Source: a virus. From it: a DNA stretch of 62,927 nt. The notes under the pieces were generated by a model, which had not been told where the DNA came from, made no database searches, and saw only the letters and a program-made list of their open reading frames with translations. The stretch lies in IMG/VR virus record IMGVR_UViG_3300035187_002838, positions 1-62,927 of that record; one strand, 5' to 3'. Positions within the stretch are counted from its first letter, which is position 1. Every line of letters starts with the position of its first letter. Made by a program: the position numbers and the translations under genes. This document shows positions 3,284-61,265 of the stretch, one piece after another.

Positions 3284-4861
3284 ATGGCAGTTGTAAATGC
3301 TGCTCTTGCAAATAAAACTGTCTCAGATCCAAATGCTGAATACGAATCCCTAAGACCTTTATGGCAGAAAAGCCGTGCTATCTGCAGTGGAGAGCGTTTC
3401 ACAAAGGACTTTGACAGTTATTTAGATGTCAGTAATTTTACAAACTTACTGATTCCATTCTCTCCTAGCATGACAGCACAACAATACGGGTTTTACAAAG
3501 CAGAAGCTGAGTTGCCAGGTATTGTTGCGCAATTTGCTAAAATGCTTGTTGGAGGCTTGTTAAGAAAGCAGCCGGTACTATCATTACCTCCGGGAGTACC
3601 TGAAGAAGTTCAAGACTGGATTATGAATCAATTTGGCCAAGATGACTCAAGTCTTATTGGCTTTCTCGATTCAGCATTGTGGGAAGAACTCCAGACAAGC
3701 CGTGCTTGGATTTATGTAGATCACCCTGTAGTAGATCCGGACACTCTTAGTGTAGAAGATAAGCAACTCTTAAAACCATATCCGGTACTCTGGCAAGCTG
3801 ACTCAGTTATTAATTGGAGAACTCGTAAAGATCCTTTTGGTAAGATGATTTTAGATCGTGTAATTGTGCGATCTTATGAAGAGTCTTTTGAAAAGAACGA
3901 GTTCCATCCAGCTTTTAAAGACACGGTTCGTGTGCATGAACTTGATGAATCAGGTTTTTATCAGATTAGAGTATTTCAGCAAAGATCTGATACAACTTCT
4001 GTGCAAGTTGTAAACGGTCAACAGCAAAAAGAATTTTCTAATCGTAAGCCTTCGTTTGAGCTTATAGATACTATTCAAAATATTTTAAATAATGGCGAAA
4101 GGCTTAGGGTAATTCCCGCGTGGCCTTTGAATGGCTCAGTCAATTTATTAGAGCCAATTTTAATGCCTATTATCGATAAAGAAGTCAGCCTATATAATAA
4201 AATAAGTAGACGTAATCATTTGTTATATGGTGCTTCTACTTACACTCCAGTCATCATGTCTGACATGAATGATGATGAATTTGAAGAGGTGGTTAACAAG
4301 GGCTTAGGCTCTTGGTTAAGACTTAGGCAAGGCGATGAGGCAAAAGTTTTAGAAACACCTACAGCAGCTTTACAAGACATGGATAGGGCTATTGCTGCAG
4401 CTATTGAAGAAATGGCAAAGCTTGGCATTAGAATGCTAAGCCCAGAGTCCGCTCAATCTGGTATTGCTCTTGAAATTCGAAATGCAGCTCAAAATGCTCA
4501 ATTGGGTTCTTTGAATACTAAAATAAGCTCTACTTTGAGAGCAGTGATTTGCTTTATGATCAATTGGAGATACAATCTTCAATTGAGACCTCAAGATATT
4601 AACTTTAGTTTGTCTTCGGACTTTAATCCAATACCTTTAGGCGCAGATTGGTTGAGACTTGCCACAGAATGGTATCAACAAGGTCTGATTCCTCGTTCTA
4701 TTTGGTTGATGATTCTCAAGCAAAATGATATGGTGCCTCCTGACTATGATGATGAGGAGGGTAGAATGGAAATCACTAAAGACTTGGATATGGCGCTTCA
4801 AAGACAAAATGAACAATACGCTGATAGCATAGCTTCACAGGAAGGAAATACTAATGGCTAA
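3284..4861 (+). CDS. Portal protein (DUF4055 type)
   Basis: The portal is the dodecameric ring at the head vertex through which DNA is packaged and ejected. The 525-aa product matches the DUF4055 portal family in length and layout. It has an N-terminal Y-x-S-L-R-P-L-W-x-x-x-R-A-I-C-S-G segment, a central V-G-G-L-L-R-K-x-P segment at about residue 90, and a conserved S-A-x-S-G-I-A-L-E-I-R-N-A region near residues 390-400. The acidic C-terminus is typical of portals. The stop overlaps the next gene by 8 nt. The nearby MuF, scaffold and capsid genes support the call. Confidence 0.85.
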   Translation: MAVVNAALANKTVSDPNAEYESLRPLWQKSRAICSGERFTKDFDSYLDVSNFTNLLIPFSPSMTAQQYGFYKAEAELPGIVAQFAKMLVGGLLRKQPVLSLPPGVPEEVQDWIMNQFGQDDSSLIGFLDSALWEELQTSRAWIYVDHPVVDPDTLSVEDKQLLKPYPVLWQADSVINWRTRKDPFGKMILDRVIVRSYEESFEKNEFHPAFKDTVRVHELDESGFYQIRVFQQRSDTTSVQVVNGQQQKEFSNRKPSFELIDTIQNILNNGERLRVIPAWPLNGSVNLLEPILMPIIDKEVSLYNKISRRNHLLYGASTYTPVIMSDMNDDEFEEVVNKGLGSWLRLRQGDEAKVLETPTAALQDMDRAIAAAIEEMAKLGIRMLSPESAQSGIALEIRNAAQNAQLGSLNTKISSTLRAVICFMINWRYNLQLRPQDINFSLSSDFNPIPLGADWLRLATEWYQQGLIPRSIWLMILKQNDMVPPDYDDEEGRMEITKDLDMALQRQNEQYADSIASQEGNTNG

Positions 4862-6279: not shown

Positions 6280-9200
6280 ATGGCGAGTAACGCTAATACT
6301 GATATATACGACAGAACAATAAATAGAGCTGCAATGATAAGGCTTTATGAAAAAAGAGTCAGTGACAAGGTTGATTTAATTGTTAACGATCATACCGGAA
6401 GAATAAACGAGCTTCTGAAAAATGGCGACTTGTCTGTAACAGGTCGAAAGAAGCTAGTCGAAGCTATTGATAAAGAACTTCTTAAAACTTATAGAGAAAC
6501 TTTTAACATTACTAAAAGATCTTTGCTAGATCTTGTGACTGACCAACTTTCATATACTTATCAAACTATTGAATCTGCAATGAGTAAAATTTGGCGTACT
6601 GAAAGACCTCAAAAGCGTGTTGCAGAAGACATTGTATTAGAAAGACCATTATATCAAGACAAAACCTTAGCTGCAGGCTGGGCTAGCGTAAGTGCGGCTG
6701 AGAAGAAAAGACTTGATGCTGTTATTCGAAAAGGTATTGCAGAAAATAAAACTATTGATCAAATAGCATTAGAAATCCGTAAGGGAAATATTCATAATAT
6801 AACAAGAGCCCAATCACGAGGACTTGTTATAACAGCCATTACCTCCGTAACATCACAAACTGATCAAGAGGTATACAAGGCAAATCAAAAAGCAATTCAG
6901 GGTTGGCAGTATGTTTCTGTCTTAGATTCCCGGACTACTCCAGTATGCATTCATAGAGATGGTAAAATTTATGACACTACAGATACTGTACATTTACCAC
7001 CTGCGCATTTTAACTGTAGATCCACAACTGTTCCTGTATTTAAATCTTGGGAAGATATCTCAAAACTAGAAGGTGTTGCTCAAATTCGCAGACGTAATAT
7101 TGAAAATTTGAGCAAAGAGCAAATTGCGTATTACGACGGACAGACACCTTTACGTGAATCTTACAATTCATGGTTGTTACGTCAAGATAAAGCAATTCAG
7201 TTAAGGCATCTTGGTGATTATCAAAAGGTAGAGCTGTTTAGATCAGGACAGCTTGAAGTAGATAAATTTACAAATGCTGATGGTAACTCTGTTGGCATAA
7301 AAGAATTAAGAGCTCTTACAGACAGTGGCTATACGCTGCCTAACGACACTAAAAAGTTTGCAATTGCAAAGGAAAAACTAGATACAATGCAATTGGGTGC
7401 AAGTAGTCCCGATGATTTTATCAATGATGAGAAACTTCGAAAAACATTAATAGATTATTACTTGTTACAAAGCGCAGAATTGAACGGGACACTGTCATTA
7501 ACTAACTATCGAGGTGTTCTTACAAATGTTAAACGTGGTGTTAAAACTCGAGTTCTGACGTCTCCGCCTAGAGAAGATCAACTGAAATTTAATCCAATAA
7601 CAGGACGATATGAAGACGTTAGATTATATCAACCAAATTCAGCTGTCTTGGCTAACAACACAAGACTTATCCAAGAAAGTGATAAGTTACTGGACAGAGA
7701 CAGGGAATTTATATTTAAAGTTTTGGATGGTCTTTCTGAGAGGATGAGTGTAAACGAAAGAGCTGTTGTCGCAGACAATCTTCGAATTATCTTTAGCAGA
7801 TACAGAGACAACAAAGAGCCCTGGACAAATTTTAAAGCGGTAGTTCAAGGTCAAATAAAGTTTGATGTAATGAACGTTTCGGATGCTATTGAAACTCAAA
7901 TTCGAAAGGATTCTGATGTTTTAAAGAAGCTACTTCAGGATAACTACTTAGATCCTGTTTTAGGTCCTACACAGTTACAGGAGCTTCATGATGATTTCAT
8001 TTCTAATATTCTTGCAAGAAATAAGTGGGAAGATAAGACAGCTCCTAAAATTGCGCAAGAATTAAGAACAGTATTTGATTACAAGATACCTGCTAAGATA
8101 CTTGGACGAGTTACTGATCGAAATTTACAACAGTTTTATTTGAAATTTGCGCATAGGTTAAGTTTAGCAGACTCCCCTGATAGAGACAGTTTTGCGGTTT
8201 CGTTAGGCAGAGACCTTTACAATCTTGCAAATTTTAATGGAAATCGACGTCAATGGTATGAGCTTGGCATGAAACTCTTAGAAGCTAAAAATGTCAAGAA
8301 ATTCTTTGAAGTTGAAACTTTTGGTGTTCAAAAGAGAAGAATGAAAAGCAGACTAAGCGGTCAATATTTTGGTCCGTACTATGATGCGTTATCCTATAAC
8401 ATTAGAATTGTAGATCCTAGAATTCAAGAGTACGCTAAGCTAAATAGAAAAGTTGAACTCGGTCTTCGAGTTTCTGTAACAGAAGATAAAAATAGACTTC
8501 TATTTAGAGAAGGCTACAAAACATATTTCATTGATAGAGGAATTTTAGGATTAGAAGATACAAGAATTCCAATTACATCAACCAGCAGCTTCAGTGATTT
8601 TCCTGAAGAATTTGTAGACAAAAATCTAGTTGATGCTTTGAATTGGGCTTCCAAAGCTAAGTATAAAATTGACGAAGACTATTTTGATTTTACACAAAAA
8701 TTATTATATTTTGAAGACGACAAAGGTCAAGCCAAAAAGTATAATGATTTGAATGAATATCGAAAATACATTTCCAGTCGTGGCGACGCTTATGAACGTT
8801 TCAAGACTATGGAATGGCTTCGTAAAGATGACAAGGCTTTTAGTAATCACCCTTTTATTGATCATCGAGCACGTATTTATGATCGTGGTTTAATCGGTCC
8901 TCAGTCTGGTGAAACATTTAGACCCTTTTTAAATACGGATGTAGCTAAGAACTTTAGTCCAGAAGATTTTGAGAACTTTCAAGATCAGATCGGATCTTTC
9001 TTAGGAGGACTTAGCGATTACTTTGAGGGAAAGTTTAATTCTCTATCAATCACAGGAAGACAGAAGATAGCAGAAAAGTGGCGTCCTGAGCTTGTTCGCA
9101 TTGGCAATCACATGCTTAGGAAGAAACCAGCAGATATTCGTGCTATTTTAGAATCTGAAATATTTCAAAAAATTGATGGCGAAGAACTTAATAAGTTTTT

Positions 9201-9528
9201 GCGTTTTGCGTTAGAGACTGCTAAAATTGATAATTACTTAGCAACTGACAGTCTCGGTTCGAAGTATTCAGTTAAAAACCTTCAAAGGCTTCGTGATTAC
9301 AAAACAGCGCTAGCTTTGGAACAAGATGCTTCATCTTCTGGCGCTCAGATTATTGCTTTAACAACTCGTAACAAACAGCTAGCAGAGTTAAGCAATGTAG
9401 TTCCTACAAACCAAAAGAAACGTTTGTATGACGAAATTGCAGCATTAACTTATAATGATCCTAGGTTCAGAGAGCTTAATCAAAAATTAGGATTAAATGA
9501 AAAAGATTTGAGAAAAGCTTCTAAGGCT
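6280..9528 (+). CDS. MuF minor head protein fused to single-subunit RNA polymerase, exon 1 (residues 1-1083)
   Basis: Residues about 150-255 form a Mu gpF-type head morphogenesis domain: SVLDSRTTPVCIHRDGKIY (D216), then L-P-P-A-H-F-N-C-R-S-T. Such proteins sit in few copies near the portal and are ejected with DNA. Residues from about 850 carry T7/N4-type RNA polymerase motifs. D861-H-R-A-R-I-Y matches the T7 D-W-R-G-R-V-Y motif, followed by GPQSGETFRPFL, matching N-P-Q-G-x-D-x-x-K-G-L-L. Motif A is QDASSSGAQIIAL, with the metal-binding Asp at D1016. The exon ends L-R-K-A-S-K-A, the start of motif B (R1078, K1082). The frame then meets TAA, which is intron sequence. The middle (300-850) is unassigned and probably holds the polymerase N-terminal domain. 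Confidence 0.85.
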
Positions 9529-10387
9529 TAAATTGGGCCTTGTAAAATCGGGTTAATTGCTGGAACAGCCTGCCGGCCAATCAGCAGCCAAGCTTAGAGA
9601 GAAATCTCTTTGAAGGTTCAACGACTAGGATATACCGCCCGTAAGGGAGATGAAATCCGTAGAATGGAAGTCCATTCGAAACGCCCGACACCGAAAGGTG
9701 AAGATATAGTCTGGTCTGCATGGGAACATGCAGGTTATTTATAGATAGGAACTGGAATGGAATATCAGAATCTTTACGTAAACTTGCTTTTAAAGCATGG
9801 CACTGAAGAGAAACCTAAAGGGTATTCAGAACGACATCATATAATTCCAAAATCAAAAGGTGGAGATGACTCTCCAGAAAATTTGATTTATTTGTCGGCT
9901 AGAGCGCATTTAATTGCACATTGGTTGTTATTTAAAATACATAAGTGTGATATGACCGCTAGAGCTTTCTATGGAATGTGCGATACTTATCGAAGGCCTG
10001 AAAGAGGTCGTATAACAAGCCATACGTACGAAGCTGCAAAGAAAGCTTTTAGTATGAACAATCATATGAAATTGCCTAAATACAGGAAGCTGGCCAAAGA
10101 GTCGGCAACTGAGCAATGGGCTAAAAAATATGATGAGATGAAGTCTTCTAATGCATTTATGTTTTCAGACGAAAAACATCCAATGTATATGAAAGGTAAG
10201 ACAGGCGACCTTCATCCACGCTCTAAGGCTGTTATTACACCACTAGGCAGATTTGGCTCAGTTCGAGAAGCAGCTAAAGCACATATGATTTCACACCCTT
10301 TAATTTCTAGATATTGCAAAAGTGCAATACACCCAGAGTACTACTATGAATAACAGCTACAAATAACGAATGTAGCTTAACATTACA
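9529..10387 (+). ncRNA. Group I self-splicing intron (subgroup IA2-like) with HNH ORF
   Basis: The exon end AAGGCT (9523-9528) pairs with the internal guide GGCCTT at 9536-9541, with the expected U-G pair at the splice site. The start taaattggg closely resembles the T4 td intron. The core is clear: GGTTCAACGACTA at 9615-9627 (P3/P7), AGATATAGTCTGG at 9702-9714 (P7 3' strand), and a P9 hairpin 9716-9733. The 3' end is less certain. A splice at 10387/10388 restores motif B exactly and also lets CAA pair with the guide (P10), but leaves A as last intron base instead of the usual G. A G-ended alternative is 10375/10376, which would add four residues. Confidence 0.88.
9757..10353 (+). CDS. Intron-encoded HNH homing endonuclease, 198 aa
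   Basis: The gene lies within the group I intron, downstream of the ribozyme core. Residues 27-60 carry the HNH signature: R-H-H-I-I-P-K-S-K-G-G, then S-P-E-N-L-I-Y-L, then A-H-L-I-A-H-W-L-L. The C-terminal 45 residues (F-G-S-V-R-E-A-A-K-A-H-x-I-S-H-P-L-I) look like a NUMOD-type helix-turn-helix DNA-binding segment. Homing endonucleases of this type cut intronless alleles and drive intron copying. The start ATG at 9757 is preceded by AGGAACTGG. Confidence 0.88.
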   Translation: MEYQNLYVNLLLKHGTEEKPKGYSERHHIIPKSKGGDDSPENLIYLSARAHLIAHWLLFKIHKCDMTARAFYGMCDTYRRPERGRITSHTYEAAKKAFSMNNHMKLPKYRKLAKESATEQWAKKYDEMKSSNAFMFSDEKHPMYMKGKTGDLHPRSKAVITPLGRFGSVREAAKAHMISHPLISRYCKSAIHPEYYYE

Positions 10388-11818
10388 CAAAACATGGTGA
10401 CCTTTTACGGTGCTGGTGAAAAAACCAGCGGCCTAAATGTAGAAGGTAAACTGTCTAAGGTTTTAGATAAGCAAGAGAATGTTTTAGTGGTCAAGGCTTC
10501 TGAAAGAGATGTAGTTCTTAATGAGATTTCTGCAAGAATTGCAAGATACGAAAAATTTGATCCAGAAACTGCCGAGGAACTTCGACAATTACGACAAAAT
10601 GTCAGAGACATTTTTAATAAAGGCTTAGATCCTGGCGATGAAATTTTAGACCAGCTTTATTTTCTAGAACCTAAAACAAAAGAACTTGTAGAAAAGCTAT
10701 CTCAGTCGTACGAGAGAGTAGTTACACCTGATGATTTTAAAGCAATTGCTAGAATCATGAGTGAATACTTATCAGAGCAAGTCCCTATACTTAAAGATTT
10801 TACCAGGTATTTTGGCAGGCTAGCCGAAGATTATTTGGCAAATGCAAAACCTTCAGGCAGTAATTTTGACTGGGAATCCATTGCAAAAACACAGCTTGTC
10901 GGCACTAAGAAAAAAGGTTATGTGTTACCTGATAATATAAGCAGATTGTTAGGAATAAAAGCTGGAGAACCTGTTTCAGAAAAGATTCTTAAAAGATTCG
11001 GATTTTGGGAGCCTAATGGTAACTTAGCGCAGCTGATTTTTGGTGTAGACTCTCCTGAATACCGTAGGACTGGAGCTAAGTACTTTAAGACTGAAGTTGT
11101 TGTTCCAACAATTGATATTGAAAAAGGTGCTTTAGCTAAAGAAGTTTCCCTCAGTGGGTTTGAAGTTTTTAAGGCAAATAAATTACCTAAAAGCTGGACT
11201 AACGTTCCTTGGGTAAATTTTGATGGAAAAATTATTGAACAAAATTTTACACAGTCTTTTGAAGAACGGCTTGTTTATAAGGATAAATACGGTAACTGGA
11301 CTACTAATATACTTCAATTACCGCAGAAAACCGAGATATCGTGGGTAGATACGCTGATTAACAAGTCAGGAAAGATTAATGACATTGCTGATTTTACGCG
11401 TGCAAGAACAGCATTCGCAGTTAATGGCAATCACTCTAATGATGCTGTAATTGTTAAAAAGTTTCATCTTTGGGGCAAGAAAACAGGTGTTACAACTTCT
11501 ACTATTCATGATGCTTTCTTTACTAATGCCGCAGACATGCTTACTGCAAGGTCAGCCTTGAAAGAGATTTATGCAGATGTATTAGATAGGAATGTTATCA
11601 AGATGACTCTAGATGAAATGAAAGCCAGAGGCTTGCCTAAGGAGTTGTATGATAAGTATCTTGAAGAAGCTATCGAAAAAGGTTTAATACCTATTCCAGG
11701 AAAATCTAGAGTTGGTGATAAAATTTTAAATGAAAAAGACATACTGAATAGAAAAGATATTTTAAAGGAAATTCCTAAAGGCTTTTCCAATGACTATGGA
11801 TGGTACGGTGTTGGCTAA
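10388..11818 (+). CDS. MuF-RNA polymerase fusion, exon 2 (C-terminal 476 residues)
   Basis: In phase with exon 1, the spliced product reads R-K-A-S-K-A / Q-N-M-V-T-F-Y-G-A-G. This reproduces motif B of single-subunit polymerases (R-x3-K-x7-Y-G, as in this phage's own second polymerase, R-K-I-V-K-R-N-T-M-T-I-P-Y-G). Motif C follows at 11437-11520: N-H-S-N-D-A then TIHDAFFTNAADM, with the second catalytic Asp at residue about 1458 of the spliced protein. T7 has HSxDxxH and IHDSFGT here. No ribosome binding site precedes the ATG at 10394, so independent translation is unlikely. The full spliced protein is about 1559 residues. Confidence 0.85.
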   Translation, partial: QNMVTFYGAGEKTSGLNVEGKLSKVLDKQENVLVVKASERDVVLNEISARIARYEKFDPETAEELRQLRQNVRDIFNKGLDPGDEILDQLYFLEPKTKELVEKLSQSYERVVTPDDFKAIARIMSEYLSEQVPILKDFTRYFGRLAEDYLANAKPSGSNFDWESIAKTQLVGTKKKGYVLPDNISRLLGIKAGEPVSEKILKRFGFWEPNGNLAQLIFGVDSPEYRRTGAKYFKTEVVVPTIDIEKGALAKEVSLSGFEVFKANKLPKSWTNVPWVNFDGKIIEQNFTQSFEERLVYKDKYGNWTTNILQLPQKTEISWVDTLINKSGKINDIADFTRARTAFAVNGNHSNDAVIVKKFHLWGKKTGVTTSTIHDAFFTNAADMLTARSALKEIYADVLDRNVIKMTLDEMKARGLPKELYDKYLEEAIEKGLIPIPGKSRVGDKILNEKDILNRKDILKEIPKGFSNDYGWYGVG

Positions 11819-11825: not shown

Positions 11826-11841
11826 CCCGTTAGATTAACCC
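11826..11841 (+). promoter_or_regulatory. Repeated promoter-like motif, copy 1 (before scaffold/capsid)
   Basis: CCCGTTAGATTAACCC, preceded by AGCCAAAT. One of four near-identical intergenic copies. It contains GTTA-GAT-TAAC, a 4-bp stem with a 3-nt loop. It lies 98 nt before the scaffold start, where strong late expression is expected. Assignment as a phage RNA polymerase promoter is inferred from repetition and position. Confidence 0.6.
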
Positions 11842-11923
11842 AGGTGAGAATCTCCACAGATAACATCTGATTTTAAAATAAAGATTGTATCTTTATTAAA
11901 TGAGTCGTACTCAAGGAAACAAA

Positions 11924-12607
11924 ATGTCAACTGATACAAATCAAGAAGATCAAAACAACGTCGATGACTCTTCATCTGACAAGAGCACAACCGAGACTAA
12001 CAAGGACACTGCAACAGGCTCAGCAGACCCTGTTGAGAAACTTATAGAATCACGTGTTCAAGAAGCTCTTAAGGATATTAAGCTAAAACTCGACAAAGCA
12101 TACAGCGTCAGAGATGAAGCTTTGCGCAAAGCTGCTGAGATTGAGCAAGCTAAGAAACAAGAAGAGATCAAGCGACTTCAAGAGGATGGTAAGCATAAAG
12201 AAGCACTTGAACTGCAACTTGCAGAAGAAAAGGCACAGAGAGCTGCATATGAAAAACGTGTCGTAGAACTAACACGCGACATGGACCTCAAAAATGCGCT
12301 AAGTACTTACTCTTTCAAAAATGAAAATGCCTTCAGTATGGCATATCGTGAAATTGTAGATCAACTCGCCCAAGATGACAAAGGAATTTGGAGACACAAA
12401 TCGGGTGTATCTCTTAAAGACTTTGTAAAGCAATTTGCAGATGATGAAAACAATGCTTTCTTGCTGAAACCTAAAGTATCTTCTGGTTCTGGCAGTTCGA
12501 CAACGAAGGTTAAAGATTCTTCGAGTGGTATGTCCGGAAAGTCTATTTTCGAATTACCGCAAGACGAAGTTTTGAAACTCGCTAGAGAAGGCAAATTGAG
12601 AAAATAA
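11924..12607 (+). CDS. Capsid scaffolding protein
   Basis: Scaffolds guide capsid shell assembly and then leave. The product (227 aa from this start) has an acidic, Ser/Thr/Asn-rich N-terminus, a long charged predicted coiled coil (about residues 45-120, E-A-L-R-K-A-A-E-I-E-Q-A-K-K and onward) and a flexible Ser/Gly-rich linker before a short basic C-terminus. This is the usual scaffold layout, and it lies directly before the capsid gene. I chose ATG 11924 because AAGGA (11913-11917) is well spaced. An in-frame ATG at 11900 would add eight residues. Confidence 0.75.
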   Translation: MSTDTNQEDQNNVDDSSSDKSTTETNKDTATGSADPVEKLIESRVQEALKDIKLKLDKAYSVRDEALRKAAEIEQAKKQEEIKRLQEDGKHKEALELQLAEEKAQRAAYEKRVVELTRDMDLKNALSTYSFKNENAFSMAYREIVDQLAQDDKGIWRHKSGVSLKDFVKQFADDENNAFLLKPKVSSGSGSSTTKVKDSSSGMSGKSIFELPQDEVLKLAREGKLRK

Positions 12608-12633: not shown

Positions 12634-13821
12634 ATGACTGTTCGTGTTAACGTTGCTGGTGCCGACAATTTTGTTCTTCAGGAAGCAATTAGCGCTTACT
12701 CTGACGAAGCATATACCACAGCTAGAAAGCTTTCTGGTACTGGTATTGTTGGTTCCAATCCCCTTATTGATACTTCAACCGAAACTTTCGTCGGTCAAGT
12801 CCGTTGGTACAAGCCGCTGAATCCTACCATTAACGTTGCATCCTTAACGGACTCGACGGATGGTACAGGTACTTCTTACAGCTCTGAGTATGTTAACTAT
12901 GTTAAGACTGTGCGTACGCATGGTGCTAACAAAGTCAATATGCAACAAGTTGTCACGCAAGTGGACGGCCTTGCCAAGATCGGTCGTGACTTTGGTGAAA
13001 CAAAAGCTCAAGATGAGCACAATGCAGTGCTGTCTGTGCTGCGTGGTGTTGCTATTTCTGAAGCACTTAATGGTTGTGCTGCAGGTTCTGGCAACACAGG
13101 TCTTGGCGGTCAAACTTTTGATAACGATCCGACCAATAAGCGTTATGGTTTCTATGTAGACCTCGGCGCAAACAAGCCTATTGTTGATGCAACCGCTGCT
13201 GTTCAAGGTGCTGCAAGAGCTGAAGGTTTCTTGAGAGCCTTTGGCATGGCTTATAAGGACTATGAGCCTGACTATGCTTATCTTGTCTGCTCTCCTGAAA
13301 TCGTGGCTTCTTTGCGTTCTGCGAATCTGGTTGATAGCACTACCGTTGTCGATGGTAATATTACTTTCAACACAATCTTCCAAGGTAAGTTCCGTCTGAT
13401 TCAGACTCGTGCTTCCCAAGGTTTTAGCACAGCTGAGCTGACAAAACTCAATACTGGCGCTGGTGTTGATATTGTCGGTACTAAGACTTCCTTTATTGTT
13501 CTTCCTGGTGCACTGGCTATGGAACCTCTTGCTGTTCCTGACAGTGTTGAAATTGAGCGTAAAGCTGCTGCTTATAAAGGTGGTGGTACTACCGCTGTGT
13601 GGTATCGTTGGGGCTATGTTGTGCATCCTGCCGGCTACAATTGGGCTGGTTCGCAAGACGCTTTCCCTTCTGATACAGACTATGTTAGCGTCTTGGAAGG
13701 CACTACCCAGAAGGCTCTGGCAAGTGTCGCTTCTGGTACGTTGGCATCAACTGGCGGTGTATGGGCACGTAAAGCTAGCTCTGCGCTTAGCTTGGGTATT
13801 CTGCCTGTGTTCCATGCCTAA
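12634..13821 (+). CDS. Major capsid protein, 395 aa
   Basis: The call rests on position (after the scaffold, before connector genes), length and composition. The sequence is rich in Ala, Gly, Val and Thr and uses codons that are clearly more GC-rich and biased than its neighbours, as expected for the most abundant phage protein. Features include an N-terminal helix (NFVLQEAISAYSDEAYTTARKL), a G-Q-V-R-W-Y-K-P-L segment, and a central long helix (MQQVVTQVDGLAKIGRDFGE) compatible with the HK97-fold spine helix. A small CCTAG/CTAGG hairpin (12611-12625) precedes the start. Confidence 0.8.
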   Translation: MTVRVNVAGADNFVLQEAISAYSDEAYTTARKLSGTGIVGSNPLIDTSTETFVGQVRWYKPLNPTINVASLTDSTDGTGTSYSSEYVNYVKTVRTHGANKVNMQQVVTQVDGLAKIGRDFGETKAQDEHNAVLSVLRGVAISEALNGCAAGSGNTGLGGQTFDNDPTNKRYGFYVDLGANKPIVDATAAVQGAARAEGFLRAFGMAYKDYEPDYAYLVCSPEIVASLRSANLVDSTTVVDGNITFNTIFQGKFRLIQTRASQGFSTAELTKLNTGAGVDIVGTKTSFIVLPGALAMEPLAVPDSVEIERKAAAYKGGGTTAVWYRWGYVVHPAGYNWAGSQDAFPSDTDYVSVLEGTTQKALASVASGTLASTGGVWARKASSALSLGILPVFHA

Positions 13822-17000: not shown

Positions 17001-20000
17001 ATGTCTGGAATTCAAATAGATGTAAATGCAAGGACTTCGAAATCCGAACAAGACCTTGCAAAAATAAATCAATCGCTCAAAAGTATTGAGCAAAGTACAA
17101 CCAGTGCATCCAGAGCATTATCGTCTACCTTTATCGGATTAGGTACAGCTTTAGTTACTGGCGGTGCATTAGTATCACTTAGAAACATCTCTACTGAATT
17201 TACCAATCTTGAAAACAAGATAGCATTGGTAACTGGTAGAACAGAGCAGCTAGTTATAACACAAACTCGGCTTTTCAAAATTGCTGAAGAAACCCGTGGC
17301 AGCCTTGCTGGGACTGTCACTGTATTTTCTAGCTTTGGAAGAGCTCTTAGAGATGCGGGCGCTTCTACTGAAAATATCCTTAAAGCTACAAAGACCGTTC
17401 AACAGTCTATTGCTATTTCAGGCTCTAGTGCAGAGTCTGCTGCCGCAGCTTTAGTCCAGTTAGGGCAGGGTTTATCTTCAGGTGTTTTAAGAGGCGAAGA
17501 ATTAAACTCAGTTTTAGAGCAAACACCTAGACTTGCTCAAGCTATTGCCGATGAGCTTAAGGTAAACTTAGGTCAATTAAGACGCTTAGGCGCAGAAGGC
17601 CAACTTGTAAGCGACGTTGTGTTTAAGGCGCTTTTAAACCAGTCGCAAAAGATCAACAAAGAATTCCAAGTACTTGCTCCGACATTCCAACAAGCAAGTA
17701 ATGCTTTAACAGATTCTATAAAGATTTATGTAAATGAACTTGATAAAGGCTTAGGTGTTTCAACGACACTAGGTAAGCTTACATTTAGTCTAGCTAAATC
17801 AATAAAAGGCGCCTCTGATAACGCATTTGAGCTTGGAAACAATATTAGAATTGCATTCAACCGAAACAAGACAACTGCGTTATCGGTGATACAACCTATT
17901 GGCAGATCGCTTGTAGAGCTGTCAAAACAATTTCTACAGATTGTACCGGGACTCAATTTAACAAGAACTCTTAAAGGTGATTTTAGAGAAGCACTTCGAT
18001 TCATTGATAAAGAATTTCTTGGCGGTTTGATAACCAGATTTAATCAGTTTAAGTTTATTGATCTGATCTCTGTAGAATCAAATGTCGAAAAAGCTATAAG
18101 AAAACTTAAGCGACTAAGCCCGACTTATTGGGCCGCTAGTGGTTTTGATGTTAAGACAATTCAACAAGTTTTAAGTACAGAAAATATAAGGTTATATGGC
18201 GCAGCTTTTACTGAACTTGCAGATGCCTTAAAAGGAAATACAGAAGGTATTGGAAACGCTTTTACAAACTTAGCTCGAAAAGTTGACTTTTCATTTAAGG
18301 CAATTTCAAGGTATTTAGGCTTTCGTGTTGACACTATAATTGCTTTTTCACGAGGTCAATTAGATACGTTCTTTGTAACACTCTCAGAAATTGTTCGCGG
18401 TATTACGGGTGTTAGGATAAAATTCTTTGAACTTAAAAGTTTATTTATTAATGTTGCGCAGCCAGGTATAGAAGCTTTTGCAGATGCTGTAATAGACTCA
18501 TTCAACGCTCTACCAGAAGGGTTTTTAAACTTTGTAGATAATGTTGCAAAAGGTTCTGTAAGACTCATTCAAATTGTTGGACAAATAACAAGAGAACTTT
18601 TGTTCACAGAATTAAATATTAACTACAAAGAAGTTTTAGACACCATCTTAAATTACATTACAAGTTTTTCTGATTCTGTCGCAAATCTTTTAAGCTTTGA
18701 TAGTTCTTTAGATAAACTTCAAAACTTTGGAAATAAAGTTATTGAAATTTTTAGAGAAATTTATGATAAAGTTATTGGAAATTCGTGGTGGACGGATACA
18801 ATAAATAACGTAATTCAAACTTCAGAAACACTTTGGGATAGAACATCTAACGGGCTAAGTCGTTTTAAGAAAAATGTAATTGGTGTTTTTAAGGATATTT
18901 TTACAAACAAAACATCTTTTGATTTTGAAATTAGCAAAAAGGTTTCATTTGATGACGTATTTGGTGGCCTTACAGCCGACGGTCTTGTAAAAACCTTTGA
19001 TGTTGTTGTTGAAAAAGCTACAAAGGTATTTGAGAAATTTTTCGAAACATTTCCAAATCTTGCAAAGGTAGCTTTGACAGGTATTGCTGGCGCACTAGTG
19101 TACAGTTTATTTCCGCCTTCTGTATTAAAAACTATAATTTTAACAAGTATTGTAAGCAGTCTTGCAACCAATTCAACACTCCTTGCAGAAAAATTCGGCG
19201 CTGCTATGACAGGAGGTAGTTTTGCTTCTACTCTTGGATATGCCATAGGTCGTGGTGCGGGATTTTTTATTAGTAACTTTATTAGAGACATTCCTCAAAT
19301 TTTAAATACAATTGGCGGTTTCGTTTCATCTCTTTTTAGAGGTATTACAGAGCAATTGCCAATAATTGGAAGTGCAATATCATTTATATTTTCGTTAGCA
19401 TCTGCAGTAGGGGCTGCAGGACCTTTAGGCATTATTGGAACTTATTTACTCGGCAAGAATTTAAATGTGTTTTCTTTAATTGCAAAGATTGAACCTATAA
19501 AAGGTCTTTTAGAATTCTTCGATCTTAAACTCGGAAAAGATGACGACAAAAAGAAGAATAAAAGCCCAGGTGTGACAGGCGCTATTTTTAGCTATCTGTT
19601 TGGAAACTTTGGTAAAGAGCGCACTATTGCTAGTATCTTAGGTGTTTTAGATCTTTTAGGTACTTTTGAATCCTTATTTGCAAATTCACCACTAACGCAA
19701 ATGGCTGCCAGAGGCGGTATCTTAGCCACTATTTTGTATGGCGAAGAAGCTACTACAATGTTTAAAAACGGTTTTACCAAATTTGTTGCAAAACCTCTCG
19801 GAGATGCTTTAAGGAAATTTTCAGAAACTAAGGGTGGTGGCATTAAGACTATTTACGATATTATTTTTGGATCCGGCGATCCCCTCGCATTACCGTCTAC
19901 GTTTGCTGAAAGAATTTCTCTTGTACTTAGACCGCTAATTGACAAAGTTACAGCAAATATTGTAGACTATGCATCGCCTAAGTTGAAAGCTGGCTATGAT

Positions 20001-23000
20001 TTTTTAGAAAAACTTTTCTTAGGTCGCAGACCTAAAAGAACAATTGCAAAGATTAATCAAGAACTTCGGGCTGTTTATGAATCAGTGGCTAAGACAGTTA
20101 CAGCATACGCTTCTAAGTTCATATCACCTTTTACAAATATTTTTAAATTTGGCAAAGGCCAAAAAGATGATGCTTCTGGAGTCGTTGACTTAGTCAACAA
20201 AACGGGTGCTTCAATTTCAAGCAAGGCTACAGAAGCTGCTTCAAAAGCTAGTGAAGCAATAGGCAAAGCAGCTAAAGAGTCATCTAAAACAATCGATAAA
20301 ATTGCAGGTGAAACCGGATTATTAGGCCGTCTTTTTCTAGGAAAATACGGTAAAGCAATTATTATAGGTTCAATACTTTCTGTATTTTCTGCACTTGCTC
20401 TTGCTAATGTGCAAGCGGAAAAAGACCTAAAGTCACCTTTTGATACATTAATTGAAGATGTAAAGAAAATTGACTTTTTGGCACCCTTCAAGGCACTTTC
20501 GACAGAAACACTGTTAAGTATAATTCCTGCTCTTATCGGTGGCTTCCTCTTATTTAAGAATAATATTCTGACTGTGTTTGGCGACATTAAGAGAGCAGCA
20601 ATGAGCACGTTTGCTTCGGTTGCTGCTGCAGCAGGTGCTACTGGTTTAGCTAACATGCTTGGTGGTGTTGCTGGCGGTGGTGGTGGACGTGCGGCACGTA
20701 ACTCACGTACGTTGGCTGTTGGAAGTATTGGAATTGCCGCAGGTGCGGGTGTTGGAGCCGCATTAATTGACAATATAACAACAGGTATTTTAGTAGGCGG
20801 TGCTTTACTTACTTTCATACAAGCTTTGCCTGCAAAGTTAGCCTTAGGTATTATCGGCGGTATTAAAACAGCCTTGTTAGCAACACTTAGTGCTATTTTT
20901 AGCATTCCAACCTTAATTGGCGCTGTTGCATTGACTGCAATAGGTGCGGCAGGTGTTTGGTTATTCGGTCCTAACAAGGAATTCTTTAAAGATTTAGATT
21001 TAGCAATTGACAAGGCAAGGGAGCTTGTCGGTCTGAGGCCTAGAGAAAAACCTTCAGATCGCGGTTTAGCAAAGTCCGATGAAGCATTTCTGAAATCCAG
21101 AAGTATTGAAAGTACATTTTCATTAAAGCAAGTTAACTTACAAAATCTAGACTCAAAAGACATACAGAAGCTTAAGGAAAAGACCGCTGAATATTCTAAA
21201 GCCATTGACAAGGCAAGAGAGGAAGAAGAACAACGTGGCTCTATTACAGACGAAACTCGAAAAGAACTAGAATTATTGGATGCTGGTCTTAAAAACTTTA
21301 CTGGAAAGTTAGCAGTTAAATCTACTAAATTTTCAGGCTCTATGTCTGAATTTATTCAAAACCTAACTAAAGTTGAAGGTGGAAGTAGGTTTGGAGATTT
21401 TGTTTTAAGATCTGAACAATTTAGAAATGATATAATCTTAGGTATTACAAGAGCTGCAGTTCAAGCTAGAAGATTTTTAGATCCTACTAAAGAAGGTAAA
21501 GCAGCTGCTACAGAGCGACTTGCTGAACTAGATTTTGAAGCTAAAACAATTTTTAATGCATTCTACAGACCTTTGTCTGAAACAGAAAAACAGCTCCTTA
21601 ATCTTGCAAAAGCTGCTGAAGCTGTAACAATAACTAATGAAGACTTAGAGCAAAGTCTGCTCAAGGCAAGACAGTTGTATGAGTCTGAAGCTGATAGGGT
21701 TCGGCTGCAACAAGCAACGCCCTTTGGAGGGTTTAAACAATTAACAGCTGCTGATACAGGATCGCTTACAATTCTAAGAGCAGATTACGATTTATTACTC
21801 CGTCAACGAGTTGCATTTGATCGTGTTAGAAAAGCTGCAAATGCTTACCAAGCAGACTTAGCCGCTTTAGGGAATACATTTAAGGATGTTTTAGGCTTAG
21901 ACGTAGATTTTAATGATATTTTTGCTGTAGATCAATCTGACTTAAAACGTATAAAAGATTTACAAGGTGAAGCTAAAAGGCTTGCAGAACAAATAAAGGA
22001 CACCTCTGATGTTGGACGTCAAAATGAAATTACTTTAAGAATTACTGAAATTAGAAGACAAGTTGTACAAATTGTCGAAAATGCTAAAGTCGAAGTTTCG
22101 CCGTTAAGACCCCAAGTTAGAGCTAGAGAACTTGCTGAAAAAGCTGGAATTATTAACAGCGATCAATTTTACGAAGGCTTAGGAGACGAAAGTGCAAGAG
22201 CTTTAATAAGAACATATCAAAATATTATCGAGAAAATAGATAATGCTAAAATTAATCCTTTAAAGCCTTTTGATATTTTCAGTCCAACTGACAAATTAAG
22301 ACCGGTTGAAACTTTAAAAGGTGCTCCTCAACAATCTTTCGGACAATTGCAAGCAGACATTCGAGCTCAACAAGAAGCAGCTGTAAGACAGGCTAAAGAC
22401 GCTGCTAGAGGCACTAAGGCTGAATTGGTGGCTTTACAACAAGATGCTGAAAAATTCGGTATAAATTACGAAAGTTTAATTACAAAGTACGGCATAAAAA
22501 GTTCTATCGGTGTTATTCAAAATCTTTCAAATAAGTTTAGAGAACTGGAAATTGCAAAAACAAACAGGCAGGATAGCAGAGTTGCAATACTAACTAGGCA
22601 AATCGGATTATTAAAAGAAGAGATTAATAAAGTACCTCTAGACTTCCAAGCTGCATTGGGTTATCTAAGCAGCGGCACATTTTCAATTACTGCCGAAGAT
22701 TTGTTCCAAACGCCTGGTATTCTTAAAGACTCGTTAGCCCTTGGCAGAGTATTTAAAAATGTTGAGGATAAGTTTAGACTGATGACTACAAATGTTTCTG
22801 AAATTGAATTTCAAGAAGTTTTTAAAGAGAAGATCGAGGCAAGTCGTAAAGTATTTGATTTATTCCTTAAAACTATTGGGAACACTCCTGCAAAGTTAAC
22901 GCAAGCATTTGAAAGAACTTTTGGTGTAAATCTTTTAGAAACCACATTGCCATCTGAAGATCTTTTAGATTTTGCAGTAAGTGTTGAGAGGATTAAGCTT

Positions 23001-33361: not shown

Positions 33362-33676
33362 ATGCCTTACGGAATGAGAATTTGGGATGCTAGTGGCAAT
33401 CTAACTCTAGACACCACAGACCGAATAACCCGGTTTGTGACAAGTATAACACCAGGTACTATCGCAGCAAATTCAACAGTCAGTTACAGTGTGCCCGGCA
33501 TCGTAGACGATGGTACGTGGTTTTTGGTAGTAATGAACACATGGCGACCGGCTTCTAATAGCACTGCTGTTTTTATCGTAATGACAATTACATCTGGTTT
33601 TATAAATGCTGAAAATAAGAGTACCACGGCTTGGACAAATGGTCTTGGTACTAGAATAGAAGTATTTAGGGGCTGA
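33362..33676 (+). CDS. Small tail fibre-like protein, 104 aa
   Basis: Starts 11 nt after the J-like gene with AAAGGAC upstream. The pattern Y-G-M-R-I-W-D-A-S-G-N-L-T-L-D-T-T-D-R is common at the start of small phage tail proteins encoded after J. The remainder is predicted beta-rich. It shares the Y-G-x-x-I-x-x-A-x-x-N opening with the next gene, which suggests that they are paralogues. Confidence 0.65.
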   Translation: MPYGMRIWDASGNLTLDTTDRITRFVTSITPGTIAANSTVSYSVPGIVDDGTWFLVVMNTWRPASNSTAVFIVMTITSGFINAENKSTTAWTNGLGTRIEVFRG

Positions 33677-33677
33677 T

Positions 33678-34313
33678 ATGTCATACGGTATTAATATTTA
33701 TAACGCTGCCAATAACATTATTATTAGCCAAGACTTTACTAACTATCACGTGGTTTCAAGCGGCACACTTGCAAATGCTGCGGCATGGCCTACGATTGCT
33801 GCTAATGAGATTCTTTTTATCAGAGCAAATACAGCAGGTGCAATAGTAAGATCTAGTATTCCGATAGGCACAATTTCGGTTTCTGCTGGGCTTGTCGAAT
33901 ATGTTGTGGTTAGACGTACTCCAAGCCCTTCCGCTAACACGTTTGGCCTACGCGTATATCAATCCGACGGAGTTAGCATAGCCTTTGACTCGGGGGCAGC
34001 AGCTGCAAAAATTGTATCAAGCTATACAAAAGTTGGACGGTCTGATGGGTTTTTTGCGTATTGGAATGTTACACTAAATCAACCTATTGCAGTTCCTACT
34101 GGCAGAAAACGATATATTACTGCCGAACCTTTCAGAGGCTTGACAGCAGTTTGGCCAGGATTCTTTCCTTTTCCGCCTGCTATAATTCTTGACCAAATCA
34201 CTTGGACCTCTGATACGCAACAGTATATTGACCAATTTACCACGGGTGGTGGTGGTTCAGGCGCTCCAATAGACTTTCAAAGTTCAAAGATCTTTTTAAC
34301 CATTGATATATAG
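33678..34313 (+). CDS. Tail fibre-like protein, 211 aa
   Basis: Starts 1 nt after the previous stop. The opening S-Y-G-I-N-I-Y-N-A-A-N-N-I-I-I-S-Q-D matches the preceding gene. The rest is beta-rich and ends with a Gly-rich stretch before an aliphatic C-terminus (S-S-K-I-F-L-T-I-D-I). It is probably an accessory tip or side-fibre component. Receptor role inferred only. Confidence 0.6.
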   Translation: MSYGINIYNAANNIIISQDFTNYHVVSSGTLANAAAWPTIAANEILFIRANTAGAIVRSSIPIGTISVSAGLVEYVVVRRTPSPSANTFGLRVYQSDGVSIAFDSGAAAAKIVSSYTKVGRSDGFFAYWNVTLNQPIAVPTGRKRYITAEPFRGLTAVWPGFFPFPPAIILDQITWTSDTQQYIDQFTTGGGGSGAPIDFQSSKIFLTIDI

Positions 34314-34320
34314 GCCCAAA

Positions 34321-35478: not shown

Positions 35479-35494
35479 CCCGTTAGATTAACCC
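35479..35494 (+). promoter_or_regulatory. Repeated promoter-like motif, copy 2 (before lysis genes)
   Basis: CCCGTTAGATTAACCC, preceded by AGCGGAA. It is identical to copy 1 over 16 nt. It lies directly after the terminator-like hairpin and 75 nt before the holin start. An AGGA/TCCT hairpin lies downstream at 35496-35510. Confidence 0.6.
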
Positions 35495-36841: not shown

Positions 36842-36872
36842 TGCGGAAAAGTCGGTATCTTATATGATAAGC
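36842..36872 (+). repeat. Spacer repeat R1, copy 1
   Basis: TGCGGAAAAGTCGGTATCTT followed by ATATGATAAGC. Two more copies lie at 40908-40928 and 41515-41540. All lie in gene-free spacers of the small-gene island. In copy 2 the sequence forms the 3' arm of a long hairpin. Confidence 0.7.
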
Positions 36873-37605: not shown

Positions 37606-37614
37606 CCAATGAGA

Positions 37615-40776: not shown

Positions 40777-40967
40777 AGCACTCTATCATACCATCCAAAA
40801 GGTGGTATGTTATGAGTGTTTTAATTCAAGGCCTACGAAGGCCGATGATAAGAGACCCGAGCAGGTCTTAAAAAGGCTCATTTATCATATAAGAAACTGC
40901 GGAAAAAGCGGTATCTTATATGATAAGCAATAGGGCTTATCAACAACATTAACCAAAGGAGTTAAAA
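40777..40967 (+). other. Structured spacer with long hairpins, R2 copy 2 and R1 copy 2
   Basis: A gene-free 190-nt spacer. First hairpin: CACTC and ATACCA at 40778-40796 pair with TGGTAT and GAGTG near 40802-40818. R2 copy 2 follows (40853-40879, AGACCC-GAGC-AGGTCT). Then TTATCATATAAGA pairs with TCTTATATGATAA over 13 bp (40882-40926), with an inner ACTGC/GCGGT stem made by R1. The spacer ends with AAAGGAG of the next gene. Confidence 0.6.
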
Positions 40968-41468: not shown

Positions 41469-41540
41469 AGACCTGAGCAGGTCTTTAAAAGGCTCAAAAG
41501 TGTCCGCATAAAAATGCGGAAAAAGTGGTATCTTATATGA
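41469..41540 (+). repeat. R2 copy 3 and R1 copy 3
   Basis: R2 hairpin AGACCT-GAGC-AGGTCT at 41469-41484 with TTTAAAAGGCTC, then CCGCAT/ATGCGG with R1 (41515-41540). Together they repeat the R2-R1 order seen at 40853-40928, so the two elements form a composite repeat. Confidence 0.7.
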
Positions 41541-43520: not shown

Positions 43521-43605
43521 GTTTTTGATTGGACTTTATCTAATTTATCTTATCCCTAAAATAATATCTAAAATAAAGGAACTTGATGAAAAAGAAAATT
43601 CTTGA
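43513..43605 (+). CDS. Possible mini membrane protein, 30 aa
   Basis: Overlaps the previous gene (8 nt) and the polymerase start (20 nt), with AAGAAAG upstream. One TM segment (F-L-I-G-L-Y-L-I-Y-L-I-P) and a charged tail. Overlaps on both sides are suggestive, but the frame is short. Confidence 0.35.
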   Translation: MIKFLIGLYLIYLIPKIISKIKELDEKENS

Positions 43606-45838
43606 TTCTTTAAACTCAAGAATAACAACTGAAATATCGGGACATAACCCGCTTAAATATTTGCTTAAGATTAAAACAGAAGATTATATTGATACATTAA
43701 TATCTATTGTATATCTATACACTAGACCGAAGAAGGGTCATAATAAAAATTCTATTTATCTTACAGAAGTTATTTCAGCTATCGGACACGGTATTCGGAA
43801 TAAGTTCAAACTAAAACGTGACTCAGCATTGGCGGCTAAAACTGGCGCCTTCATGTTATATACTTTTGAACATCTCGGATATATTCAAGTTGTTCTCGGA
43901 CAAGGCTCAAAAGGGCATAACACTTATCTTGTGCAAGTGCTCAATGATGATGAAATTTGCAATTTGTGGAATTCACTAGATCCTTCTCAAATTGAAAAGT
44001 TACCTTCAGAGACTCCCTACGAACCGTGGACTTCTGCAAAGCATTCAACGGGTGTCTGGCTTGTTAAAACAGGCAATAAAACAGTCTTAGACAGTCTTAC
44101 TCCAGAAACACATCCTATTGTCTTTAATTGCGTCAACAAAGCACAACAGATGGGCTGGAAAATAAACAATTGCGTTTACGATCTTCATTTGTGGGCCTTA
44201 CGAAATAAAACAGATGCATTCTCTGAAATCTGGGAATTGTCTAATGCGGAAGCAAAGGCAACTAAACTAAGAGAAGCAAAAGCTATAGGTGACATCTCAC
44301 GAAGATTCTTAAATAAAGTTTTTTATCATCTTTATTACTATGACTTTAGAGGTCGTAAATATACCGCTACTGCATATTTGCATGAGCAAGGCTCTGACCT
44401 TGCAAGAGGTCTACTATTGAGAGCAGACTCAAAACCAATTGGAAAAGAAGGCTTCTTTTGGCTAATGGTATCAATTGCTTCAAATTGGGCGGGTGATGCT
44501 GGCAGAGAAGATGGTGCAAAGACTGACAAAATACCGCTTCAAGAACGATATCTTTGGGCTCTAGACAACGAAGAAATTCTATTGTCATATGCCGAAAACC
44601 CTAAAGTAAATCAAGGTTGGATGAAAGCTGATAATCCTTGGCAATTCATTGCAGCGTGCAACGAACTAATGCGATTTAGAATCTGGCAAATGAATGTGTA
44701 TGAAAACCACAAAGATGTTGTAGCTGAATATGACTACCCATCATCGCTTGAAGTATATATTGACGGGTCAAACAATGGTAGTCAGCATCTTGCAGCATTG
44801 ACTAAAGATGAAATAATTGCACCGCATGTAAATCTGGTGCCATTAAACTTGCCTGGAGATCTCTACAAATATGTCGGTGACCATGTCTGGAAACATCTTG
44901 AAGAAGAGCTTTCTTTAATGACAAATGAAGAAATTCAGGACTGTGAACGAGTCATTGATAATCTAATTCAGCTTAAAAAGCAAATAAATGCTGCTGAACC
45001 TAAAAGTGATTTTAGAAAACAACTCATAGAACAAATCAAAGAATTTAAGTCTGAAAATGATCAGCTTATTGGGATTGCTGCACCTGTATTTTGGTCTAGA
45101 ATTAAAGATGCAAAACACAAGAGAAAGATTGTGAAAAGAAATACGATGACTATCCCGTATGGCGGAACAGCCTATGGCTTAGGTCAGCAAATCATTGATG
45201 ATGCTAGAAAGCATAATATTGAACTTTTGCTTTATATGGAACATCGATGGGGTGCATATCTCGGAAGAGAAGTGTTTAATGACTGCAAGCGTTCTTTAGA
45301 AAAGCCTATGCAATTGCTTAAGATCTTTGAAGAGGCTGGTCGAAAAGCTGAGCAAGACGGCAAGTTTTTATCCTGGACTGTGCCTGTTACAAAGTTTCCT
45401 GTAGTACAAAACTATACAGAAGGCGTTGTTAAAAAGATTTACGTACAATATGGTCCACCTCAAGGTCTTAGAAATAGCACAGGTTATTTTGATAATACAC
45501 TGCAATTAGCAATATGCTTCATTGAGGATGTAAAACCTTCTAAAGGAAAACAGTCTCAAGGTGCAAGTCCGAATATCATTCACAGTCTTGATGCTGCGCA
45601 TCTGTCTATGATTGTAGCTTCTTCTGACTTTCCTGTAACGACTATTCACGATTCTTTCGGATGTCTTCTGGCAGATATGCCTAAGTTGTTTGCAGTAACT
45701 AGACAAACATTTGTTGAACTTTATAAACAAGATCCTTTAACATCGATTATGAAAGATATAGGAGGTAATGCAAATGAAGTAGAACTAGGAAATCTTGATT
45801 TAAACTTGGTAATTGAATCCGAATATTGTTTTTGCTAA
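43586..45838 (+). CDS. T7-type single-subunit RNA polymerase, 750 aa
   Basis: Transcribes phage genes from phage-specific promoters. ATG 43586 has AAAGGA at 43576-43581. Motifs are textbook: D253-F-R-G-R-K-Y, G-S-D-L-A-R-G-L-L, motif A Y-I-D393-G-S-N-N-G-S-Q-H, motif B R-K-I-V-K517-R-N-T-M-T-I-P-Y525-G-G, and motif C H-S-L-D-A-A-H then T-I-H-D689-S-F-G. At 750 residues it is shorter than T7 (883), mostly at the N-terminus, so the promoter recognition part may differ. Made in the cell, in contrast to the MuF-linked polymerase. Confidence 0.95.
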   Translation: MKKKILDSLNSRITTEISGHNPLKYLLKIKTEDYIDTLISIVYLYTRPKKGHNKNSIYLTEVISAIGHGIRNKFKLKRDSALAAKTGAFMLYTFEHLGYIQVVLGQGSKGHNTYLVQVLNDDEICNLWNSLDPSQIEKLPSETPYEPWTSAKHSTGVWLVKTGNKTVLDSLTPETHPIVFNCVNKAQQMGWKINNCVYDLHLWALRNKTDAFSEIWELSNAEAKATKLREAKAIGDISRRFLNKVFYHLYYYDFRGRKYTATAYLHEQGSDLARGLLLRADSKPIGKEGFFWLMVSIASNWAGDAGREDGAKTDKIPLQERYLWALDNEEILLSYAENPKVNQGWMKADNPWQFIAACNELMRFRIWQMNVYENHKDVVAEYDYPSSLEVYIDGSNNGSQHLAALTKDEIIAPHVNLVPLNLPGDLYKYVGDHVWKHLEEELSLMTNEEIQDCERVIDNLIQLKKQINAAEPKSDFRKQLIEQIKEFKSENDQLIGIAAPVFWSRIKDAKHKRKIVKRNTMTIPYGGTAYGLGQQIIDDARKHNIELLLYMEHRWGAYLGREVFNDCKRSLEKPMQLLKIFEEAGRKAEQDGKFLSWTVPVTKFPVVQNYTEGVVKKIYVQYGPPQGLRNSTGYFDNTLQLAICFIEDVKPSKGKQSQGASPNIIHSLDAAHLSMIVASSDFPVTTIHDSFGCLLADMPKLFAVTRQTFVELYKQDPLTSIMKDIGGNANEVELGNLDLNLVIESEYCFC

Positions 45839-46716: not shown

Positions 46717-46732
46717 CCCGTTAAGTTAACCC
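46717..46732 (+). promoter_or_regulatory. Repeated promoter-like motif, copy 3 (before SSB)
   Basis: CCCGTTAAGTTAACCC, preceded by AGCAAT. The GTTA-AGT-TAAC mini-hairpin is followed directly by a CCCTC-AAGT-GAGGG hairpin (46730-46743), 23 nt before the SSB start. Placement before SSB fits a strong phage promoter. Confidence 0.6.
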
Positions 46733-61249: not shown

Positions 61250-61265
61250 CCCGTTAACTTAACCC
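61250..61265 (+). promoter_or_regulatory. Repeated promoter-like motif, copy 4
   Basis: CCCGTTAACTTAACCC, preceded by AGCTAA. GTTA-ACT-TAAC mini-hairpin; downstream AACCCTTATT pairs with AAATAAAGGTT across CTGA (61262-61286) with one mismatch. 138 nt before the 189-aa gene. Confidence 0.6.

Follow-up and report, generated by a model that had tools for sequence, protein, structure and literature searches.

Besides some jumbo and crAss-like phages, which also have virion RNA polymerases (RNAPs), two described systems serve as the closest points of comparison for the locus reported here. Coliphage N4 has a virion RNAP, gp50, and a second enzyme, RNAP II (gp15/gp16) (PMC12633501, PMC5512222). The Thermus phage P23-45 has a virion RNAP fused to the tape measure (gp96) and a non-virion RNAP (gp64), and the virion RNAP reads the pre-early genes, including the gene for the second RNAP (PMC10770324). 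Surveys of MuF head protein fusions list ART, PBECR RNase, 2H, RelA/SpoT and Nudix domains as cargo, and one of them confines N4-like virion RNAPs to N4-like phages (PMC5512222, PMC9503650). Here we analyse a viral DNA of 62,927 nucleotides (nt), IMG/VR record IMGVR_UViG_3300035187_002838, which we call the window at its full length. Its gene at 6280-11818 encodes a MuF minor head protein fused to a T7-type RNAP (MuF-RNAP).

A complete T7-type RNA polymerase in a MuF head protein

A first-pass annotation, made from the letters of the window, had placed a MuF domain and single-subunit RNAP motifs in one gene. Every motif that it listed was found at the place it had given, and structure modelling confirmed a MuF-RNAP fusion with a complete T7-type single-subunit RNAP from about residue 564. 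The parts of the gene are these:

6280..9528, + strand: exon 1 of the MuF-RNAP gene, residues 1-1083 (open reading frame (ORF) call; splice junction via intron-free L005)
6715..7029, + strand: MuF / SPP1 gp7 minor head domain, residues 146-250 (PF04233; PHROG_241)
7969..9528, + strand: N-terminal part of the single-subunit RNAP domain, residues 564-1083 (AlphaFold2 model, VIA-align to T7 RNAP)
8860..8880, + strand: DHRARIY, residues 861-867, counterpart of T7 DWRGRVY (D861, R863, R865 and Y867 invariant in 58/58 homologues; hhalign to T7 RNAP)
9319..9348, + strand: polymerase motif A, EQDASSSGAQ, residues 1014-1023, with D1016 equivalent to T7 D537 (D invariant in 58/58; hhalign)
9529..10387, + strand: group I intron, 859 nt, ends +/- 2 nt, at the polymerase motif B codons (RF00028; intron-free relatives)
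9757..10353, + strand: HNH homing endonuclease ORF within the intron (PF01844, E 1.7e-5)
10388..11818, + strand: exon 2, residues 1084-1559 and the stop, holding the rest of polymerase motif B, HSND and motif C (PF00940, E 1.4e-6)
Exon 2, + strand: polymerase motif B YG 1090-1091, HSND 1432-1435 and motif C HDAF 1457-1460

Structure prediction, one of the checks that the first-pass annotation had put forward, returned a T7-type polymerase fold. The AlphaFold2 model (L005:697-4266, equal to window residues 370-1559, built with 57 homologues) had a predicted local distance difference test score (pLDDT) of 83.2 and a predicted template modelling score (pTM) of 0.81. VIA-align ranked T7 RNAP first (8dh5_M; Z 26.3, 545 residues, 3.9 A, 18% identity), and a second T7 RNAP chain superposed at 3.2 A over 500 residues. 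Mitochondrial RNAPs (Z 20-25), N4 mini-vRNAP (Z 15.4) and N4 RNAP II (Z 14.6) followed, and Foldseek concurred with a T7-like fold (E about 1e-17). Model residues 195-1189 align to T7 RNAP residues 33-882, model residues 195-1190 being window residues 564-1559. The protein ends with the RNAP domain (model 1189-1190 matches T7 882-883), and the N4-type zincin-like metallopeptidase and C-terminal region are absent. The 'T7/N4-type' of the first-pass annotation is corrected by this: the domain is nearer to T7 and mitochondrial RNAPs than to the N4 virion RNAP, and lacks the extra C-terminal domains of N4.

The catalytic residues are conserved. Counterparts of D537, K631, Y639, H811, D812 and the DWRGRVY motif, in T7 RNAP numbering, are invariant in 58/58 homologues, as are window residues K1082, Y1090, G1091, H1432, D1435, H1457 and D1458; R1078, the counterpart of T7 R627, is R in 52/58. 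The first-pass annotation had numbered D1016 and D1458 correctly, both are invariant in 58/58, and the match to T7 RNAP implies that the two would lie close together in the model. The sequence of the domain is very divergent, and PF00940 is weak in each exon: exon 2 scored 27.8 bits against a cut-off of 22 (E 1.4e-6), and exon 1 alone scored 15.6 bits, under the cut-off. Intron-free homologues matched the PHROG_414 RNA polymerase family with E values of 2.2e-21 (L006) and 4.9e-25 (DSS3_VP1). The first-pass annotation had also proposed a profile search. In a direct PDB sequence search T7 RNAP was the best hit of the fusion profile, at a marginal E value of 0.02; hhalign aligned the fused profile to T7 RNAP with an E value of 3.4e-6.

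The MuF domain lies within the N-terminal 260 or so residues, where it had been proposed. PF04233 matched residues 146-250 above its curated cut-off (47.1 bits against 29.6, E 4.5e-12), PHROG_241 (head morphogenesis) matched residues 1-348 (E 7.9e-64), and TIGR01641 (SPP1 gp7) exceeded its cut-off in four relatives. A model of residues 1-563 (pLDDT 77.8, pTM 0.56) matched phage head-morphogenesis and minor-capsid proteins in BFVD; against the PDB, the best Z for the MuF region was only 5.4.

The two ORFs, 6280-9531 (1083 amino acids (aa)) and 10394-11818 (474 aa), are the two exons of one spliced gene, as had been supposed. Between them lies a group I intron that matches RF00028 over the full model length (89.3 bits, E 5.4e-23). 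In L005, a 99% identical intron-free copy, the junction reads ...AAG GCG-CAG AAC ATG GTG..., and this and other intron-free relatives set the protein junction K-A|Q-N-M-V-T-F-Y-G, so that exon 1 ends at about 9528 and exon 2 starts at about 10388. The predicted splice junction of the window is ...AAGGCT-CAAAACATGG..., with boundaries uncertain by 1-2 nt, and no terminal omega-G was seen at intron 9529-10387. The spliced product has 1083+2+474 = 1559 aa.

Relatives carry further insertions in this gene. In L018 and L096 an insertion lies a few codons beyond the window intron site, and by spacing the same holds for L028 and L089. With intron-like insertions at two or more nearby positions, the MuF-RNAP gene of these relatives is a repeated homing target near the codons of polymerase motif B. 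In-frame inserts that form accessory domains in the RNAP occur near residue 988 (about 145 aa in L031, L033, L034 and L092; about 95 aa in L068) and after polymerase motif B (about 230 aa in L070, L072 and L073). Those tested had no significant Pfam match, and we rejected inteins as their source, as they have no Cys start, HN end or Hint-domain match.

A second polymerase and two promoter-like motifs

The window also encodes a free T7-like RNAP, and two promoter-like motifs lie ahead of its gene blocks:

43583..45838, + strand: free T7-like RNAP, 751 aa (PF00940, E 2.2e-62; PHROG_414, E 9.5e-107)
36843..36867 (position 36854), + strand: promoter-like motif B, copy 1, GCGGAAAN4GGTATCTTATATGA
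40899..40923 (position 40910), + strand: promoter-like motif B, copy 2
41516..41540 (position 41527), + strand: promoter-like motif B, copy 3
11826..11841, + strand: promoter-like motif A, 8 nt past the MuF-RNAP stop, upstream of the scaffold and capsid genes
35479..35494, + strand: promoter-like motif A, head of the early block
46717..46732, + strand: promoter-like motif A, upstream of the single-stranded DNA-binding protein and DNA polymerase genes
61250..61265, + strand: promoter-like motif A, near the record end

Both the fused and the free RNAP are encoded by DSS3_VP1 and by 20/20 long relatives (56-82 kb). The record of EBPR siphovirus 1 is partial and shows the fusion only. In hhalign comparisons the fused profile came no closer to the free RNAPs (E 1.5e-4) than to the T7 enzyme (E 3.4e-6), so a recent duplication of the free RNAP is an unlikely origin for the fused one. 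The free RNAP gene itself seems interrupted, possibly by introns, in G005, G007, G011, G014, G016, G026, G052, G053 and G064.

The motifs came from an unbiased search based on 368 ORFs of the window and five relatives, each with a ribosome-binding-like site: the 16-mers in the 150 nt ahead of these ORFs were ranked by recurrence. Two families came out on top, CCCGTTARNTTAACCC (motif A) and RGTATCTTATATGA (motif B). The second has the pattern GCGGAAAN4RGTATCTTATATGA, which over 27 sites extends to about YGCGGAAAAN3RGTATCTTATATGAWA. Allowing one mismatch, we found four copies of motif B in the window against 0.10 expected from shuffled windows, and four of motif A against 0.00; three of the motif B copies are exact, and all of those listed lie upstream of 43583, where the free RNAP gene begins. 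The motif was found in the early region of 13/13 relatives examined, on the coding strand and usually ahead of a ribosome-binding site. Motif A heads the late, early and replication blocks, and stands 8-12 nt beyond the MuF-RNAP stop in 6/6 genomes. The gene for a second phage RNAP is thus preceded by its own promoter-like class, the arrangement taken as a sign of a two-polymerase cascade.

Searching 2.9 million viral contigs for exact matches to the long form of motif B returned 63 stretches. Of 47 records checked, 31 encode MuF-RNAP, including 19/19 of those of at least 60 kb; the other 16 are all shorter, and 15 of them encode a free RNAP at about 53-72% identity. These results indicate that motif B belongs to the MuF-RNAP phage group, and say nothing on which polymerase reads it. 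Sigma-70 promoter matches in the early block showed no clear excess (31, against 25.4 +/- 4.1 in shuffles).

We rejected two other promoter candidates. An N4-style hairpin (CTTAT-ATG-ATAAG), which presumes that motif B is the promoter of MuF-RNAP, is possible in some copies, but the stem is not conserved. Of other repeats of the window (D1-D3), D2 and D3 were not found in the 13 relatives, and D7 gave a few partial matches only. The early block at 36951-41550 is crowded with small genes of unknown function and contains a duplicated stretch (36951/37863, 74% identical); its intergenic repeats GGCYCTTCGGGGCC and AGAAGCCATTAGARATAGTGGCTTC, three copies each, were not found in 13 relatives. Further on, an HNH endonuclease ORF (49746-50228) overlaps the 3' end of the DNA polymerase gene.

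A diverged motif pair in DSS3_VP1

Both polymerases of phage DSS3_VP1 are only about 30-36% identical to those of the window, and its genome shows a similar layout. The sequence GCATCTATAATGA occurs three times, at 35809, 36256 and about 67793 (0.02-0.03 expected), and two of these copies lie just ahead of genes leading to the free RNAP at 42436. The sequence ATAGGKKRCGTTAAAG occurs in 12 exact copies plus variants (0.00 expected), mostly around the terminase, portal/MuF and replication genes. In both phages, one motif class covers the late and replication genes and the other lies ahead of the free RNAP gene. ATCTATAATGA of DSS3_VP1 resembles ATCTTATATGA of motif B, and CGTTAAA is common to the DSS3_VP1 pair and motif A. 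DSS3_VP1 thus has a diverged motif pair that repeats the pattern independently.

Head genes and relatives

The genes around the fusion encode head and tail proteins:

3284..4861, + strand: portal protein gene (PHROG_145, E 2.6e-56)
11900-12607, + strand: scaffold gene (PHROG_206, E 1.6e-8)
12634-13821, + strand: major capsid protein gene (PHROG_247, E 3.7e-17)
17001-27362: tape measure ORF, 3453 aa, separate from MuF-RNAP

The order is portal, MuF-RNAP, scaffold and major capsid, with the portal upstream of MuF as usual, and the portal, fusion and coat genes of DSS3_VP1 are ordered in the same way. A tail terminator, major tail protein, tape measure and distal tail protein were recognised and no tail sheath was found among the window ORFs scanned, so the window phage is most likely a siphophage (long-tailed).

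We sought relatives in IMG/VR scans, which gave 119 close relatives and, with an alignment query, at least 570 related stretches. PF04233 and PF00940 both matched in 25/25 full-length homologues, MuF and RNA_pol being the sole Pfam matches common to them. Among about 50,000 phage records, the RNAP part was matched only by EBPR siphovirus 1, DSS3_VP1 (two records) and DSS3_PM1. These records label the homologue as head, minor head ('minor head protein-like protein') or hypothetical, and the RNAP domain is unmentioned. DSS3_VP1 and DSS3_PM1 (Naomviridae, Noahvirus), deposited as phages of Ruegeria pomeroyi DSS-3, going by their names, are homologous over the whole protein at about 30-36% identity, and the DSS3_VP1 protein (QGH74596) has 1463 aa; gp47-gp48-gp49 of EBPR siphovirus 1 is about 58-59% identical and is also split around an HNH gene. 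The fusion is therefore not unique to the window phage: the long-tailed phages that carry it form a large group, which is widespread and appears to be undescribed. The first-pass annotation knew of no described MuF-RNAP fusion, and we found none in the accessible literature; a mention in subscription papers is possible.

Pelagibacter phage Kolga EXVC016S (MT375529) encodes a 634-aa relative of the MuF protein that lacks an RNAP (45152-47053), and a free RNAP (33563-35851). Having no fused RNAP, Kolga-type phages were rejected as members of the group; Kolga lends itself to comparison on how the fusion was gained or lost. Two matches in one metagenome-assembled genome of a gammaproteobacterium gave no host assignment. 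The larger contig, JAOUJT010000001.1 (L384; 74 kb), carries the fusion and has the same size as viral record G008 (74179), so it is probably a phage binned with the bacterium.

Proposed mechanism and alternatives

We consider it quite probable that MuF-RNAP is packaged, is ejected and transcribes from motif B to give the free RNAP, which in turn transcribes from motif A. The MuF part would anchor a small number of copies at the portal within the head, and the protein would leave the head with the DNA on infection. The fused polymerase would then start at motif B in the early block, without host RNAP and probably at the G of ATCTTATAT-GA, and make the free RNAP. With motif A, the free RNAP would transcribe the replication genes and the late ones, the MuF-RNAP gene among them. 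In DSS3_VP1, the first transcripts would start at GCATCTATAAT-G at 35.8, 36.3 and 67.8 kb. The idea of injection for early transcription gains independent support from the second, free RNAP and from the conserved pair of promoter-like classes, of which one lies chiefly in the early block. In general terms, it seems fairly likely that abundant, unrecognised long-tailed phages inject a T7-type RNAP as MuF cargo through the tail, start independently of host RNAP from a dedicated promoter class and hand over to a second RNAP with another class.

Several points weigh against this proposal. We infer packaging, ejection, polymerase activity and promoter assignment, and only position links each motif to its polymerase. 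The early block, too, is preceded by motif A, which is near-palindromic and could serve as an operator. In G001, G002 and G004 a few copies of motif B stand beside motif A in later blocks, and some motif B copies contain TATGAT and may be read by a host sigma factor. A 1559-aa protein would also have to pass through a siphophage tail.

The alternative that survives best, which we regard as unlikely, is that the fused polymerase is a late product acting in the cell that makes it, for example as a late-gene polymerase or after cleavage from MuF, with no virion delivery and with host RNAP reading the early genes. The gene does lie in the late head block, with motif A just past its stop, and in Kolga a free RNAP can serve the phage without the fusion. 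Against this, a free RNAP is already there for the later genes, the MuF fusion is kept in 25/25 full-length homologues, and the sites of motif B are grouped upstream of the free RNAP gene; MuF fusions, moreover, are generally read as head-delivered effectors (PMC5512222, PMC9503650).

It is more doubtful still that motif B is a host RNAP promoter with a non-canonical sigma site, MuF-RNAP having some other job at entry, such as pulling in the genome by transcription or low-specificity transcription. Motif B spans about 25 bp, has a fixed spacing and includes the block GCGGAAA, unlike a -35/-10 pair, and as far as tested it is restricted to the MuF-RNAP phage group. The TATGAT in some copies would suit a host sigma factor; DSS3_VP1, on the other side, has its own motif variant, and sigma-70-like sites are in no clear excess.

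It is very improbable that the RNAP domain is catalytically dead, with a structural, DNA-binding or regulatory role in the head: its great divergence from known RNAPs (best PDB profile hit T7, E 0.02) would allow this, but D1016, D1458, K1082, Y1090, H1457, R863 and R865 are invariant in 58/58 homologues and the alignment spans nearly the whole length of T7 RNAP.

If injection of MuF-RNAP for early transcription is true, a polymerase can be delivered from the head through a long non-contractile tail, and phages of poorly known aquatic hosts could do without host sigma factors at the start of infection. Proteins at present annotated as 'minor head protein' would gain a function, and the predicted motif sites could yield new RNAP-promoter pairs. 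DSS3_VP1 and DSS3_PM1, being deposited phages, make this reading directly testable.

Comparison with known systems

MuF-RNAP resembles the described MuF-effector fusions in joining MuF to an enzymatic cargo, and differs in that the cargo is a complete RNA polymerase. With N4 it shares a single-subunit RNAP fold inside a head protein, a second phage RNAP expressed early and the logic of a cascade. N4, in contrast, is a podophage, and its gp50, of about 3500 aa, uses hairpin promoters and has different domains at its N and C termini; the window protein has a fold nearer to T7 (Z 26 versus 15) and a MuF domain in place of the N4 domains, and no hairpin is conserved in motif B. With P23-45 it shares a long tail, fusion of an RNAP to a structural protein, a virion and a non-virion RNAP (the virion role here being the one we propose) and two promoter classes. 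The P23-45 enzymes are two-barrel (cellular-type, DPBB) RNAPs, the virion one on the tape measure, whereas here a T7-type RNAP is carried on MuF and the 3453-aa tape measure is separate. The simplest account of our analyses would be a two-polymerase cascade like those of N4 and P23-45, built from different parts. If true, it would add a further structural solution to virion-borne transcription besides those two.

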